Shown here piece by piece: positions 20,293-35,605 of a stretch of DNA of 35,605 bases. The notes under the pieces are model-generated. The model was not told the origin of the DNA. It saw only the letters and a list, made by a program, of their open reading frames with translations, and ran no database searches. Position 1 is the stretch's first letter. Every line of letters starts with the position of its first letter. The stretch comes from Alphaproteobacteria bacterium (GTDB lineage Bacteria > Pseudomonadota > Alphaproteobacteria > JANQMY01), in contig JANQMY010000573.1 of assembly GCA_028279895.1 (NCBI GenBank), forward strand, positions 1-35,605, in the 5' to 3' direction. The position numbers and the translations under genes were made by a program.

Positions 20293-22845
20293 TCAGGCCA
20301 CATTACTCGTCTCGGGCGCTGCCGTCGCGAGCTCCGATAGGGTCGTCTGCAGTTGATCCAAATCCACCGGCTTGGCCAGGTACGCGTTCGCGCCGGCCCG
20401 CAGATAGCGTTCGCATTGGCCGGTTAACGCATTCGCCGTGATCGCAATGATGGGAACGTCGGCATGAGCGCCTCCGGAGGCCCGAATGCGCCGCATGGCT
20501 TCTTCCCCGTTCATGACCGGCATGTTGATGTCCATCAGCACGATATCGAATGTGCCGGCCTTGAGCGCGTTGACGGCGGCCAGTCCGTTTTCTACGGTCG
20601 TCAGGTCGATATCCCATGCGTCCATGGTCGACAGGGCCTCTTCAATGAGCTGTTGATTTATCGGATTATCTTCGGCAAGCAAGACCCTCAGGCTTGGTAC
20701 GCGTGCCGGGGCTGGCGCGTCCCCGCGCATAATGTCCGCCGTCGTCTTCAAATCTTCGATGCCCGCCTCTAGGTTCTCGTCGGCCGATCGGAGCGGCAGG
20801 GTGAACCAGAATGTGGCCCCCTCGCCCGGCACGCTGTCGACGCCGATATGTCCCCCCATCAACGCCACCAGATCTTGCGAAATGGCAAGTCCCAGGCCGG
20901 TACCGCCATGTTTCCGCGTCACCGAGCCGTCCGCCTGGACGAAACGTTCGAATATCGCTTTTTGCTGCTCGACAGGGATACCTGGGCCGGAATCCGTCAC
21001 GGCAAAGCGGATCAATCCGTCCTCGGTCTTTTCAGCCGTGATAGTGATACCGCCCTCTTCCGTAAACTTGATGGCGTTGCCGGCCAAGTTGATCAGGATT
21101 TGACGAATGCGGTTATTGTCTCCGAGATAACGGCCGGGTCCGCTAAACAACTTATTCGTCTGAACCGCCAGTTTCTTCTGCGCTGCAATCCCGGCTACGG
21201 ACTCGACAACTTCTTGCAGCAGCTCTTCTAAGTCGAACGGCACCGGATCGAGATTCATAAGACCTGCCTCGATCTTCGAAATATCGAGAACATCATTTAT
21301 TAGCGACAGCAGAGCGGCGCCAGACGTGCGGATGGTCTTTGTGTAGCGCTTTTGCTTTTCGTCCAGATCGGTCCGTTCCAAAAGCTGCGCCATGCCGAGA
21401 ACACCGTTGAGCGGCGTGCGAATTTCGTGGCTCATATTGGCCAAGAATTGGCTTTTTGCGTCGTTCGCCGCTTCGGCGTCCCGGCGCCGGCTCTCCAGTT
21501 CTTCCGCATTGACCACACGGTCCGTTACATCATAACGAATGGAGACGTAGCTTTTGGGCTCACCCGCGAGATCGCAGATCGGAATGATCATCGTATCGAC
21601 CCAATAAAGCTGGCCATCGCGAGACCGGTTGCAGATTTCGCCTTGCCAGGGGCGGCCGCTGCCGATGGTGTCCCACATGTCGGCAAAGAACTCTTTGGAA
21701 TGGTGGCCGGAATTCACGATGCGGTGGTTCACGCCGATCAGATCGTCGCGATCGTATCCGCTGATTTCGCAAAATCGTTTATTGGCAAACGTAATGGCGC
21801 CCGACGTATCGGTCACGGCGACAATCGCCATTTCATCCAAAGCCGATTGATAGGCACTTAAATCGGAAAGCGCTTCGTCAGCCTTCTTCAATGCTTTCGC
21901 CAGCGAGGCACGTTCTTTTCTCTGTTCTGTGATGTCCTGCAAGGCGCCGTAGATCTTCGATGGCTTTCCGTTCCGGAGTGTGCAATTCCCTACAGTCCGT
22001 ACCCAGATGTGTTTGCCCTTTGCCGTAACAAGCGGGAGTTCCAAGTCGAATGGGGTGCCCTTCTCGACACATTGCGTGATGGCCTCGTTTAACGTGTCCC
22101 GCCCCTCCGGTTTAAAGAACTCGACTACTTGTTCAGTCGTTGGATAAAAGTCCGGATCGACCTCATAGATACGGCGCATTTGATCGCTCCAGATCGGACG
22201 GTTTTCCTGAAGATCGATTTCCCATGCGCCCACATGAGCGACTTCGGACATGCTCGCCAGCATCGTCTGGTTGTGCTCCACATGGTGCGCGGACAATGAA
22301 AGTTGGCGTGAATAAAATGTGGATGTGACGAGAGCGAGGGCGATGGCCGAGCACAAAACAAGAGTTGCAGCCAAACGAAGCGTGTTGGCATCGAGCGGCG
22401 ATTCGGTGACCAGATTATTGGCGTCGGCGATGTGCAGACCGAGCACACAAAGGATCGATAAGGATCCAAATATCAAGGAAGAACGCACACTGAGAAAATA
22501 ACAGGCGGCGATTGGCGTCATCATCAAAAACGGAGCGACGTAACCATCGGCACCGCCGTTGATGGCCGCCGCGGAGGTTGAGCAAATCAACATCACGGCA
22601 GCGAACACGGTTGCCGGCCAGGCGATCTTTTTTAATAAGAGAGACCAGATGCCTAAAACGGCAAAACAGGCCACGGCAAAGAAGCCGATGATCATTCCCA
22701 ATCTGACCTGCCCTGTCAGAAGATAGATTTCCAACAGGTAGACGAAAATGACGGCAGCGAAACCAAAAGACGACCAAACGAAAGCTCGGCGGACGGATGG
22801 ATCGGTAGACCTGTCGGCATCCAAAAGCGGCTTGTTCATTTTCAC
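20293..22845 (-). CDS. hybrid sensor histidine kinase (membrane sensor-PAS-PAS-HisKA-HATPase-REC)
   Basis: N-terminal TM block; [71 protein letters not shown]...[23 protein letters not shown]. Confidence 0.96.
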
Positions 22846-31092: not shown

Positions 31093-31517
31093 GGCCCAAC
31101 TCCGTTCGTTTTCTTTAGCCGGGCCGCTCCCACACAGCGCCCAATCGACCGGTTTCGGATTATGCATGCAATGAACGGTTTGAGAACCGGCTTCGCATTG
31201 CAATTTACCAATTGCGGAGGGAGTGGCGCATAAAGGTTAAAGTAATAAAACCATGCGACTCTTCGCGCCGAAGTGACGGGAGTTTTTGGCGCGAATGCGG
31301 CGTTCCATGTGGTATAAAACCGCACATTGCCTGGCGAATCGTGGTAGGCAGCTTCGGAACGTACGCGGACAATTCAGCTCTAATAGACCATTCGGTTTAT
31401 CGTATTCACGTCGCTTTGGGTTGTTTGGAAGGTCTAAGAAGGCTGACTAAATAGCTCGTTTTAAAAGCAAATTGAGTGTGTCCTAAGATTCTGAATGAGG
31501 GAGAGGGGGCGCGAAAC

Positions 31518-33005
31518 GTGTCAACACACAACCAAAGTAAGCAGCGACCGAATTGGCGTAAGCTATGCGTCGTTGCCGCTGTTGGAATAGGTTTGAGCGC
31601 CTGTGCAGGTGTTCAGAACGACTCCCAACGCGTTGAAAATGAACCGAAAGCAAGCCAATCCACGACCAAGCAAGGGGATAATTTGGCGAGCTTATCAACG
31701 GAACTCGATGCGCAAAAGCAAGCGCTGAGGGTCCAGCAAGACCGCATTTCGCAGTTAGAACAGCGCATTGAAGCCCAGCGTGCGACGCAAGCTTCAGTAC
31801 AATCGGCTGACTATGCGGCCGGCGGCGAGCAAGACGTACCGATCTATTCGCTGCCGGAGCAAAACAGCCTAAAGTCGCCTTATCGTGACCAGGGCCCTGT
31901 CCGTCAGGCGAGCTGGGTCAACCCGGCTCAACGAGGCCAAGCGACTCAAGGCTATCAGACGGTTGCGGATGAAAATGAGAGCGGCAGCGGGCGCGAATTT
32001 GTCGGGGAACGTCCCCCGGTAGAGGAAGAAGAGCGTCCGCCTGAAATCTTGGCGTTGGCCGATTCTGGTGGCGTTTTGACCCCCAAGGGTGTTTTGACGA
32101 TCGATCCGGCCATCACCTACTCCAATAGTAACGTGAGCCAATTCAGCTTCCGCGGTGTTCAAATCCTGGATGCGTTTTTGATTGGTGCCATTGAGGCCAC
32201 CGAGTCCGATCGTGACTTTATTTCGGCCTCTATTGCCGCCCGCTACGGCGTCACCGACCGCTTGGAAGTGTCGGTGCAAGTGCCGGGCGTTTACCGTAAT
32301 GACGATATTGTCGAAACCAACGTGACCAGCGTCTCGACCACCTCAACCAGTGATGAAGAGACACTGGAGGCGTTTGGTTTGGGCGACATCGATTTCGGCC
32401 TGCAGTATCAGCTCAATAAGGGCAAGAACAACTGGCCCTTCTTTGTGGCCAATGTGCGTGCCCGGGCCCCCACAGGCGAAGGTCCGTTCGATGTTGATCG
32501 GGAAGGCTTCACTCCAACGGAGTCGACGACCGGTTCCGGCTTCTGGACGATCCAGCCGAGCATTACGGTCATTAAGCCGACCGACCCCTTGGTCTATTTC
32601 GGTAACTTCAGCTACCTCTACAATAAGAAGACCAGGCCGGATGCGGCCGTCAGTGCCACCCAGGTGGCCAATGAGTTCGATCCCGGTGATTCCATCGGCG
32701 TGAGCTTTGGCGCCGCGTTGGGCATTACGGAGAAGGTGTCGGCGAGCATGAGCTACCAGCACTTCTACATCTTCCCGTCCGAGCAGACGTCGACGATCTT
32801 CACGCCGTCATTGGTCGGACCCGGTGTCGACGAAACCACCGCTATCTCCCGCACGGGGGATTTGCAAGTGGGCACGCTGAATTTCGCTCTGAACAACCGC
32901 TTGAAGCGGGGGTCTGCAAGCCTGCAGGTCGGTGTCGGCGTGACGGAAGATGCGCCCGACATCGCGGTGACCTTCAGACGTCCGCTCAATTTCCGGCTCA
33001 ACTAG
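31518..33005 (+). CDS. putative FapF-like outer-membrane beta-barrel with N-terminal coiled coil and lipobox; GTG start
   Basis: RBS-like gagggagaggggg before GTG at 31518; CVVAAVGIGLSACAG lipobox; coiled coil LSTELDAQKQALRVQQDRISQLEQRIEAQR; then alternating beta strands (GVLTIDPAITYSNSN... to VAVTFRRPLNFRLN) as in transporter-type barrels. Confidence 0.65.
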   Translation: MSTHNQSKQRPNWRKLCVVAAVGIGLSACAGVQNDSQRVENEPKASQSTTKQGDNLASLSTELDAQKQALRVQQDRISQLEQRIEAQRATQASVQSADYAAGGEQDVPIYSLPEQNSLKSPYRDQGPVRQASWVNPAQRGQATQGYQTVADENESGSGREFVGERPPVEEEERPPEILALADSGGVLTPKGVLTIDPAITYSNSNVSQFSFRGVQILDAFLIGAIEATESDRDFISASIAARYGVTDRLEVSVQVPGVYRNDDIVETNVTSVSTTSTSDEETLEAFGLGDIDFGLQYQLNKGKNNWPFFVANVRARAPTGEGPFDVDREGFTPTESTTGSGFWTIQPSITVIKPTDPLVYFGNFSYLYNKKTRPDAAVSATQVANEFDPGDSIGVSFGAALGITEKVSASMSYQHFYIFPSEQTSTIFTPSLVGPGVDETTAISRTGDLQVGTLNFALNNRLKRGSASLQVGVGVTEDAPDIAVTFRRPLNFRLN

Positions 33006-33050
33006 AGACAAATATCTGGTCCGTGTCAGTGGACCAGTCGGTTACAAGAA

Positions 33051-33078
33051 GGCGGTGCCCATCGGCACCGCCTTTTTT
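33051..33078 (+). terminator. Rho-independent terminator
   Basis: Perfect 9-bp stem ggcggtgcc (33051-33059) / ggcaccgcc (33064-33072), then TTTTTT. Confidence 0.9.
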
Positions 33079-33173
33079 CGTTCGCCGGCCGATGTGCCCT
33101 CTCCGCCCCCGCGTGACAAAAAAAGGGCGGTTCAAAGTGAACCCAGCTACACGCTCGGAAGCCTTCGAGAGAC

Positions 33174-33953
33174 TTAGAACTGCCGTCCCAGCTGGAACAA
33201 GATTTGGGAATTGACCACATTGGTGATCTGACTTTCGACCCGCGCCCGCGCCGCCATGGCATCGATCATGGAATAATTGGCGATGTCCAGATTGATGACC
33301 CGGTTCAACAAGACGTTCGAATTGTCGGTTTCGATGACGCCCATCTGAACTTCGAAGACACTGCTCGGCAAAGCGCCGGAGGTCGATACGCCTTCAGGTG
33401 GCAGCACCGCAGCTTCCTCGCCGGCCGTCATGTCGGCCGTGTTGAAGGTCATGGTGTCGTCCGTCAATGTGGCCGTCTGCTCAGCGCCGGTATTTGTGGT
33501 GGTGGATGCCTCTACCATCGTTTCCGGTGTGACGCTTGCCGCGGAGACTTGCGTCACCGTACTGTTGGAAACAACGGGCGCCCCGTCGACCGACGTTTCG
33601 ATTACCTCGTCAGAAACAATCTGCTCCACCGCATCTTCCCGGCGCCGGATCATAACGTTCCGGCCCAACTGATCCATCCGGTTTTGCACTCTTCCCAACA
33701 CGGCGTTGGAAGTGCGCAAGATCCGTCCATTGACGGCCTGGGTCACTTCCACACCGATATTGAATTTGAGACCGTTCACGGTCACGAAGCCGCCACGAAG
33801 TTCGCCCAATTCGTTGTCGGACAAGGCTTCGACGGGCTCGCCCATCAGCTCTTCAAGTTCGGACATGGCATAGGCATTCGGGCTGAGAAAAACAGCTGCC
33901 GAAAGCGCAATGGCCGCGCCAATCGATTTTCCTGATTTGTACTCAATACTCAT
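33174..33953 (-). CDS. Sec-exported protein with double-glycine leader-like motif (possible Fap-associated component)
   Basis: Signal peptide IGAAIALSAAVFLSPNAYA, then MSELEELMGEPVEALSDNELGELRGGFVTVNGLKFNIGVEVTQAVNG; upstream neighbour encodes a C39 peptidase. Confidence 0.7.
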   Translation of the reverse strand: MSIEYKSGKSIGAAIALSAAVFLSPNAYAMSELEELMGEPVEALSDNELGELRGGFVTVNGLKFNIGVEVTQAVNGRILRTSNAVLGRVQNRMDQLGRNVMIRRREDAVEQIVSDEVIETSVDGAPVVSNSTVTQVSAASVTPETMVEASTTTNTGAEQTATLTDDTMTFNTADMTAGEEAAVLPPEGVSTSGALPSSVFEVQMGVIETDNSNVLLNRVINLDIANYSMIDAMAARARVESQITNVVNSQILFQLGRQF

Positions 33954-33987
33954 TTACCAGCACCCCCCGAAGTGCCCGCGCTGCCTA

Positions 33988-34707
33988 TTAGAACTGGTTC
34001 TGTCCTGGCGCTAAGACGGTGACGGCCTCAAGACCGTTCCGGTCTAGCGCCATACCGAGATACGCCTTGCTTTCGAAAGGCAGATCGCGTTTCAGGTTAA
34101 ATTGCGAGCGGGCCAGCCTTGCCTTGTTGTGAATCGCGAAAGCGATACCGCTCCATTCTGTTAGGAATTGCTCGCGGGTCACCATTCGAGACCCAAGAGC
34201 AGGATCACCCACCACAACATGGGTGTCCGTGATGCCGCGAAGAACCACAAAGTGGGTGTAGCCACGTGTCGTAATCAATGTGATCGTGGGGACACCGACT
34301 TGGCGCAACTTGTCTAATGGCACACGAAATCCGTCCGAGCGCATGCCAATGCTTTGCAGGTAGTTTTTCATGTCGAGAAGAGAGAACCCTTCCCGCCTGA
34401 TTTTTTCTTTATCGCCTGCTGCCCACATTGCGTCGAAGAGAACACCTTCGGTCTTGGGCATGTCGTAGTGATAGGTCAGAAGCGTGGCGAGAGCCGCCGA
34501 ACCGCAACTGAAGTCGTAATTCTGTTTAACGACCGTGTCGAACCGCTTTTCTTGCAGACTTTTGATGGTGACATTGACCGGGAACGCGCCGGCAAAAATG
34601 CGCGCTTCGACAGCGCTGGCCGGTTGGGGCTGCGAGACGACCGCAGCCAGGCCAAAAGCAGCGACGGCACAAAGCGTACGAGAACTTTTTGAAAGTAAAG
34701 ACATCAT
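33988..34707 (-). CDS. standalone C39-family cysteine peptidase, FapD-like
   Basis: VVKQNYDFSCGSAALATLLTYHYDMP (Q...C), GYTHFVVLRGITDTHVVVGDPALGSR (H...D); N-terminal signal peptide; no ABC transporter domains. Confidence 0.88.
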   Translation of the reverse strand: MMSLLSKSSRTLCAVAAFGLAAVVSQPQPASAVEARIFAGAFPVNVTIKSLQEKRFDTVVKQNYDFSCGSAALATLLTYHYDMPKTEGVLFDAMWAAGDKEKIRREGFSLLDMKNYLQSIGMRSDGFRVPLDKLRQVGVPTITLITTRGYTHFVVLRGITDTHVVVGDPALGSRMVTREQFLTEWSGIAFAIHNKARLARSQFNLKRDLPFESKAYLGMALDRNGLEAVTVLAPGQNQF

Positions 34708-34764
34708 GACCTCAAAAAAACGAATCCACTGTCTTTTGATCTACGCAATCTTTGTGCCTGTTCG

Positions 34765-35139
34765 CTAGAACAGATTCACATTAATCGTGGTGTTCATCTG
34801 AACGTTGTTGTTATTTCCGGAAACTACCGCCGCCTGGCCGAAGGTTGAGTTGCCGAAGGCACCGTCGCTAATTACCGCCTGGCCCGTATTCCCGGTAACT
34901 GAGTTGCCGGCATTGACGGCGTCCAGATCAGAGTTCTGCAAAGTGAGAACGTTCTGACGGCCGCGTGTGTCTCCCAATTCACCTTCAACGGAGATAGCTT
35001 GTCCAAACGCCCCGTCTAGGAAATTTTCTTCTGCAGCCGGTGCATCGCTAGACCTGAGATCTTCCATGGCAAACCCGGTCGTCGCACTGAGCGACAGGGC
35101 GATGCCCGAGATCAAACTGCACACAAACCCGTACTTCAT
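34765..35139 (-). CDS. small secreted N/G/Q-rich protein, putative amyloid subunit or nucleator
   Basis: Signal peptide MKYGFVCSLISGIALSLSATTGFA; motif recurrence DGAFGQAISVEG and DGAFGNSTFGQAAVVSGNNNNVQMNTTINVNLF. Confidence 0.65.
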   Translation of the reverse strand: MKYGFVCSLISGIALSLSATTGFAMEDLRSSDAPAAEENFLDGAFGQAISVEGELGDTRGRQNVLTLQNSDLDAVNAGNSVTGNTGQAVISDGAFGNSTFGQAAVVSGNNNNVQMNTTINVNLF

Positions 35140-35242
35140 CGAACCACTGCCTTCCAGGAGACTCGTTCCTGGATCCAAAGGGTTGAACGATCAAAACTAC
35201 AAAGGTCCCGGCGGGCCGAAGCCCGCCGAGATTACGTGTTGA

Positions 35243-35605
35243 TTAGAAGCCTACGTTGCCCATGTTGGCCGTAACGGTTTGGCTCTGCTCGGTGATACCC
35301 TGGGAACCAGAGTTAGCCGAGAACTGGCCAAGCGCTACGTCATCAGCCATGCCGCCGATATTGGCAGATGCGCTCATGGAAACTTCGCCGTCGTCGTTGG
35401 CAACAAGGTTAGCCGAAGCGATGTTCAGCACGTTTGCCGCAGACATTTCGGTGTTCGAAGCAACTGCATCCGTGTCGAACAGGATGTCGACATCGTCAAC
35501 AGCAACTGCAGGACCGTCCGTCGAGATGGCTTTCGCGCCATTCGAGTCGGAGTTGTCCACAACACCGTCGTCTTCCGCGACGCTGTTGCCAGCAACATTG
35601 ACGCC
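35243..35605 (-). CDS. putative functional-amyloid-like secreted protein (N-terminus beyond the right edge)
   Basis: Open frame to the edge: GVNVAGNSVAEDDGVVDNSDSNGAKAIS...SANVLNIASANLVANDDGEVSMSASANIGGMADDVALGQFSANSGSQGITEQSQTVTANMGNVGF, rich in A/N/S/G/D; 'GVNVAGN' is like Fap-type repeats. Confidence 0.65.
   Translation of the reverse strand, partial: GVNVAGNSVAEDDGVVDNSDSNGAKAISTDGPAVAVDDVDILFDTDAVASNTEMSAANVLNIASANLVANDDGEVSMSASANIGGMADDVALGQFSANSGSQGITEQSQTVTANMGNVGF

Follow-up and report, generated by a model that had tools for sequence, protein, structure and literature searches.

The stretch of DNA analysed here (the window, 35,605 nucleotides) is the entire contig C562 of assembly G000, and the gene cluster described below lies at its right end. 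All five genes that an earlier note on this DNA had reported were found in place. The gene order is as it had described, and so is the convergent lipoprotein with a coiled coil and a beta-barrel, which has an LSAC lipobox and, in the AF2 model, the corresponding helix and barrel. The features are:

31476-33005 (31518-33005 from a probable GTG start), plus strand: F gene, FapF-type outer-membrane export channel with lipobox LSAC
33051-33078, plus strand: GC-rich hairpin followed by a T-run, between the convergent F and E stop codons, read directly from the sequence
33174-33953, minus strand: E gene, FapE-like, with a signal peptide, a propeptide of about 26 residues carrying a double-glycine site, and a mature secreted protein
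33789-33824, minus strand: double-glycine leader LSDNELGELRGG of E, by direct translation
33988-34707, minus strand: D gene, FapD-type periplasmic C39 cysteine peptidase with a signal peptide
34765-35178 (probable ATG at 35139), minus strand: S gene, small subunit with a signal peptide, a degenerate leader GELGDTRGR and one C-terminal Fap-type repeat
35206-35231, minus strand: hairpin with an 11-pair stem in the gap between the large-subunit and S genes, found by scan
35243-35605, minus strand: C-terminal 120 residues of the large subunit, A/N/D/G/S-rich and secreted, the gene being cut by the contig end

The hairpin and T-run at 33051-33078 probably act as a terminator; our terminator scan did not list them and placed minus-strand terminator-like sites at 33037-33016 and 33143-33129 instead. 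The stem of the second hairpin (35206-35231) is nearly unchanged in a genome of the same genus (G001), and this element may be an attenuator or stabilise the mRNA. The window also encodes, some 9 kb away from the cluster, a TorS/BarA-type hybrid histidine kinase/response regulator (20293-22845, minus strand).

The missing part of the cut gene could be recovered. Its N-terminal part, corresponding to residues 1-326 of the G001 homologue, is on another contig of the same assembly (G000:C195:5-949), where it is followed by a second large paralogue and then by a GT41 gene. In G001 the locus is intact: two paralogous large-subunit genes (products of 456 and 408 aa) come with S, D and E, and F is convergent with them. 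The F, E, D and S proteins of the window and G001 share 62-85% identity. The G000 assembly is fragmented and has a contamination estimate of 9%. Six of the seven proteins tested from the left flank are collinear in G001 (68-82% identity), and thus the locus is genuine despite this estimate.

We then analysed the individual proteins, beginning with F. It matches the NCBIfam FapF model (1.1e-40, 139.7 bits), and FapF (5o67) was its sole significant sequence match in the PDB (8.8e-27, residues 197-504). The AF2 model consists of a 46-residue helix (coiled coil, 68-113 of the 31476 ORF), a disordered linker and a beta-barrel at about 205-509, with pLDDT mostly above 90 in the barrel blocks. This is the coiled-coil and beta-barrel architecture of FapF. 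When the model was searched with Foldseek, the top 18 matches were all FapF chains (best E 2.2e-21, target-normalised TM-score 0.80), followed by the COG4313 channel 4rl8 at 8.8e-12, and the Pfam family Phenol_MetA_deg matched at 1.3e-5. The likeness to FapF barrels that the earlier note had suspected is therefore borne out, and by its sequence and modelled fold the 31476-33005 product is a FapF-type channel. The lipobox is not a general feature of these proteins, being present in only 8 of 85 F proteins. We also asked whether GGVLTP, where the F barrel begins, could be a second peptidase site of universal occurrence; this idea was dropped, as the pattern used found the motif in only 30 of 85 F proteins.

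The D protein had been described as a standalone, FapD-type C39 peptidase with a signal peptide, and this description holds. It matches Pfam PF03412 (Peptidase_C39) at 6e-22 and the NCBIfam FapD model at 1.6e-48 (164.9 bits), and the best PDB match of the D profile is 6mpz, a double-glycine protease. Cys68, His152 and Asp168 are invariant in the nine sequences compared and, together with the signal peptide seen by reading, give D the features of a Sec-exported C39 peptidase. Profile matches and catalytic residues alike identify the product of 33988-34707 as a C39 peptidase of the FapD type. Neither the window's D (164.9 against 330 bits) nor its F (139.7 against 700 bits) reaches the equivalog cut-off, and the canonical copies of G001 are likewise under these cut-offs (FapD 249 bits, FapF 392 bits). 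In the fragmented G000 assembly, a further FapD or FapF did not turn up.

The earlier note had also recognised a secreted protein with a double-glycine leader. Bacteriocin leaders follow the consensus LSxxELxxIxGG. The E leader LSDNELGELRGG agrees with this consensus and directly precedes the mature protein, which by direct reading has about 200 residues. RGGF is invariant in the first eight of eight E relatives, the motif L...RG[GA] occurs in 76 of the 80 relatives among the matches listed, and leader positions -12 and -7 are hydrophobic in 98%. At the corresponding position, canonical FapE shows L.D.EL...RG[RK][YF] or something very close to it in the 19 loci with a located site, a count that is no independent test because these loci were picked with a pattern requiring RG[RKSG][YF]. 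The E profile and canonical FapE aligned at the leader site (hhalign 5.6e-7 over 52 columns), single-pair hhalign E-values being uncalibrated and taken here together with HMM searches and controls. The similarity is mainly confined to about 50 residues around the leader. By itself the window's E does not match the NCBIfam FapE model, five of 36 relatives match it weakly, and the hhalign comparison of E with FapB was not significant (0.38). E thus has a textbook double-glycine leader, and the version in canonical FapE is degenerate. We predict that D cuts the leader of E after RGG, and it is very probable that E is the substrate of the peptidase.

In Pseudomonas, FapC secretion requires FapD activity and FapE loses its N-terminus (PMC5557850); the substrate of FapD was left open, and the Fap proteins were said to have no canonical C39 site (PMC5557850, PMC6173800). 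By extension from E, we infer that canonical FapE is the substrate of FapD. The textbook site on E, together with its degenerate counterpart in canonical FapE, makes the FapD-substrate question testable at residue level.

Next, we turned to the putative subunits. The E, S and large proteins of the window gave no usable Pfam or NCBIfam match, including with the FapB, FapC and FapE models. S has a leader that is degenerate both in the window and in G001, is acidic after this leader by direct reading, and ends in one copy of a repeat of the form GAFsNasGl..viQNsGnNvlIQnaTivNv. The profile of this repeat matched ten canonical FapB proteins at 5e-3 or better (best 1.6e-8), with reversed controls at 0.18 or worse. 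A profile of the large-subunit tail matched FapB at 2.4e-6 (reversed controls 0.18 or worse, or absent), and in the other direction the canonical FapB profile reached the large subunits of L132 (6e-11) and L087 (8.2e-7). The hhalign comparison of S with FapC was not significant (0.095). The cut C-terminus in the window did not score alone, and its link to Fap runs only through the paralogue large2, which the tail profile matches in G000 and G001 (6.4e-6 and 3.4e-6) and which is about 48% identical to large1 in G001. These comparisons tie S to FapB-type repeats and the cut gene, via its close paralogue, to a large-subunit family.

The large subunits differ extremely in length and composition and contain 1-24 detectable S-type repeats in loci where the S-repeat profile scores. 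The earlier note had described the 35243 product as truncated and A/N/S-rich; the truncation is real, whereas the composition is better given as A/N/D/G/S-rich. Its full-length homologues are not globular: they are low-complexity secreted proteins without a Pfam or NCBIfam domain, and in complete homologues Arg makes up at most 0.9% and Lys at most 1.3%. Neither the S profile nor a large subunit with 24 repeats gave any match in PDB searches. The AF2 model of S had no confident fold (pLDDT 54), and therefore a cross-beta structure is without computational support.

A similarity search with D alone yielded at least 80 named loci. To describe the distribution of the cassette, we built profiles of S, E, D and F from 8-12 loci and applied them to the 80 loci listed. 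All 80 of these matches have E directly after D, and 77 have S before D; an F gene is close by in 73, with 40 of these F genes on the opposite strand and 33 on the same one. A large low-complexity secreted protein precedes S in 70 of the 77 loci with S among the matches listed, and several loci that lack a cassette member run into contig ends. The loci listed come from Alpha-, Beta-, Gamma- and Deltaproteobacteria. In a tree of D (quick search), rooted on more distant alphaproteobacterial D-F pairs, the 49 cassette-type peptidases group in a single clade with an SH-aLRT of 99, separated from 15 canonical FapD by a branch of 0.91 changes per column. Adjacent D-F pairs from other alphaproteobacteria (L055:1275-3121, L056:7463-9301 and L052:3964-6095) are distant and fall outside both branches. 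The proposal of a divergent alphaproteobacterial locus therefore stands as regards a sister branch, but this branch reaches far beyond the alphaproteobacteria, into four proteobacterial classes.

FapF-like genes were found in 26 of 387 alphaproteobacterial genomes, with about 14 strong matches. Across 399 sampled Pseudomonadota genomes, classed by F score alone, about 15 had a cassette-type score (at least 378 bits) and 20 a canonical one (217-280 bits), these being the same 20 genomes that the FapE model matched; two of the 399 had both score types. G001 has a second, canonical-type fap locus besides the cassette (FapB 77, FapC 118, FapD 249, FapE 61 and FapF 392 bits), and thus the genus can carry both kinds. 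In three Halomonadaceae loci (L079:12152-14692, L085:12324-14084, L089:6830-7555) a canonical fapB, accompanied by fapC in two of the three, is about 3 kb from the cassette F, so the two Fap branches are neighbours there. The literature searched contains no paper that pairs fapD/fapF with Halomonas. FapA had no match in G000 or G001 and was found only in the comparison genome G645, which has a canonical operon.

Some neighbouring genes recur. Genes for TPR-GT41 (OGT/SPY-like) glycosyltransferases, at L042:3680-6154(+), L006:13921-16398(+) and L007:10246-12783(-), adjoin fap-type loci. The whole genome of G001 has just two GT41 genes, one at each of its two fap-type loci, and the single GT41 gene of G000 adjoins the window's locus; near the 80 named loci listed none was seen. 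O-glycosylation of the subunits by the adjacent GT41 is possible. In canonical loci of alphaproteobacteria, fapE and fapF are separated by a gene for a secreted protein with a peptidoglycan-binding domain, and one cassette has a relative upstream. These genes are:

L007:5599-6225, minus strand: peptidoglycan-binding-domain protein
L043:6410-7042, plus strand: peptidoglycan-binding-domain protein
L044:9205-9801, minus strand: peptidoglycan-binding-domain protein
L047:1168-2112, plus strand: peptidoglycan-binding-domain protein

Judging from translations, a LuxR-type regulator lies in a similar position beside one canonical locus and one cassette (L007:13214-14317(+) and L048:5235-6473(-)).

Our main reading is that the cluster is a Fap-type secretion and fibre-assembly locus belonging to a distinct sister branch, and not a canonical fap operon; we give this a probability of roughly 75%. 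That it encodes a Fap-type exporter is nearly certain, while an amyloid-like fibre as its product is somewhat likely. Our strongest claim is a conserved exporter with a defined C39 site, and our weakest the amyloid product. The earlier proposal of a functionally equivalent Fap-like locus with diverged subunits and a split arrangement largely holds, except that the locus is homologous to Fap and not merely equivalent to it.

Could the same genes serve another purpose? FapD/FapF machinery can carry non-amyloid cargo, as in the nap island, which combines NapP, NapF and double-glycine peptides (PMC11798529), and both E and S carry leaders of the double-glycine type. The locus might accordingly be a Fap-derived exporter whose double-glycine cargo, peptides or proteins, serves as secreted signals or autolysins and does not build a fibre. 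We regard this as quite unlikely: Nap peptides are cationic and smaller than 10 kDa, whereas S is acidic after its leader and mature E has about 200 residues, and the large protein upstream of S, in 70 of 77 loci among the matches listed, goes together with repeats that are FapB-related. A further alternative retains the fibre and changes its nature, to a non-amyloid surface fibre, adhesin coat or pilus-like structure built through Fap-type machinery from repeats of another beta architecture, comparable to the putative Fil system. The extreme variability of the large subunits and the FilB and FilC matches of D and F (117.6 and 67 bits) are in keeping with it; the Fap models nevertheless outscore the Fil models (164.9 and 139.7 bits), and profile searches link the repeats with FapB whichever side serves as the query, which makes this alternative unlikely.

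Finally, F might be an uptake channel of the COG4313/phenol-degradation family in a coincidental neighbourhood, as its Phenol_MetA_deg match (1.3e-5) and the second place of 4rl8 in the fold search could suggest. FapF is, however, far ahead in that search (2.2e-21 versus 8.8e-12), and F is conserved together with D, S and E in four classes, so we consider this explanation extremely improbable.

For the Fap-type secretion and fibre-assembly locus, our model is as follows. The large, S, E, D and F proteins would all be exported by Sec, and the periplasmic C39 peptidase would remove the E leader after RGG and probably also the degenerate leader of S. Mature E would then open or prime the F trimer, through which the unfolded large and small subunits would pass, assembling outside via their shared repeats into an amyloid-like fibre. 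S may be a nucleator-like minor subunit, and the hairpin between the large-subunit and S genes could favour an excess of the large subunit. More speculatively, and with doubt as to the whole, the locus may represent an overlooked second Fap-type amyloid branch, about as frequent in Pseudomonadota as canonical fap, in which secretion is licensed once the periplasmic C39 peptidase has cut true double-glycine leaders off two secreted proteins, the major subunit is free in its repeat number (1-24) and the adjacent GT41 enzyme O-glycosylates the subunits of this genus.

A 2013 survey placed Fap in Beta-, Gamma- and Deltaproteobacteria only (PMC3792158), and the accessible text of a 2025 survey covers many Pseudomonadota families and does not name the alphaproteobacteria (PMC12822426). 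In the 2025 GTDB screens a hit had to have FapB/C repeat homologues near other fap genes, and the conclusion was that Fap systems have three repeats almost without exception (PMC12392863, PMC12822426). This FapB/C-repeat filter would probably miss the sister branch, and thus the distribution of Fap-type systems and their repeat rules may have to be revised. Our search, which covered openly available main texts, found no published description of the cassette, its subunits, the E protein or the leader. The fapD-fapF pairing itself is already known.

Several known systems resemble the locus in part. The fapD-fapF pairs that Rouse et al. (2018) reported outside canonical operons, within 5 kb and in five further phyla, share the pairing of FapD and FapF homologues, but the accessible main text names no subunits, E-like protein, leader or cassette (PMC6173800). 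The Neisseria nap island (NapP, NapF) shares a C39 peptidase, a FapF homologue and double-glycine cargo; this cargo, however, consists of small cationic autolysis peptides, and no repeat subunits are described (PMC11798529). The putative Fil pilus system (NCBIfam FilB/FilC) has a C39 peptidase and a FapF-like protein too, although in this comparison, made by models only, the Fil models score below the Fap models for the window proteins.

The canonical Fap system of Pseudomonas (fapABCDEF) shares a FapF-type channel, a periplasmic FapD-type C39 peptidase, a FapE-like protein and FapB-related repeat subunits, and in both systems D adjoins E. Canonical Fap has FapA, which had no match in G000 or G001; loss of FapA is common in canonical systems. 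Canonical Fap is a single co-directional operon ending in fapF, whereas F is convergent in the window and on the opposite strand in 40 of 73 loci among the matches listed. Separation of fapF is known in some canonical loci as well (PMC3792158). The window's subunits are not recognised by the FapB and FapC models, and in place of the three canonical repeats the sister branch has 1-24 in its large subunits and one in S. A further difference from canonical Fap is that its D proteins form a clade of their own and that its E carries a true double-glycine leader, with S bearing a degenerate leader.
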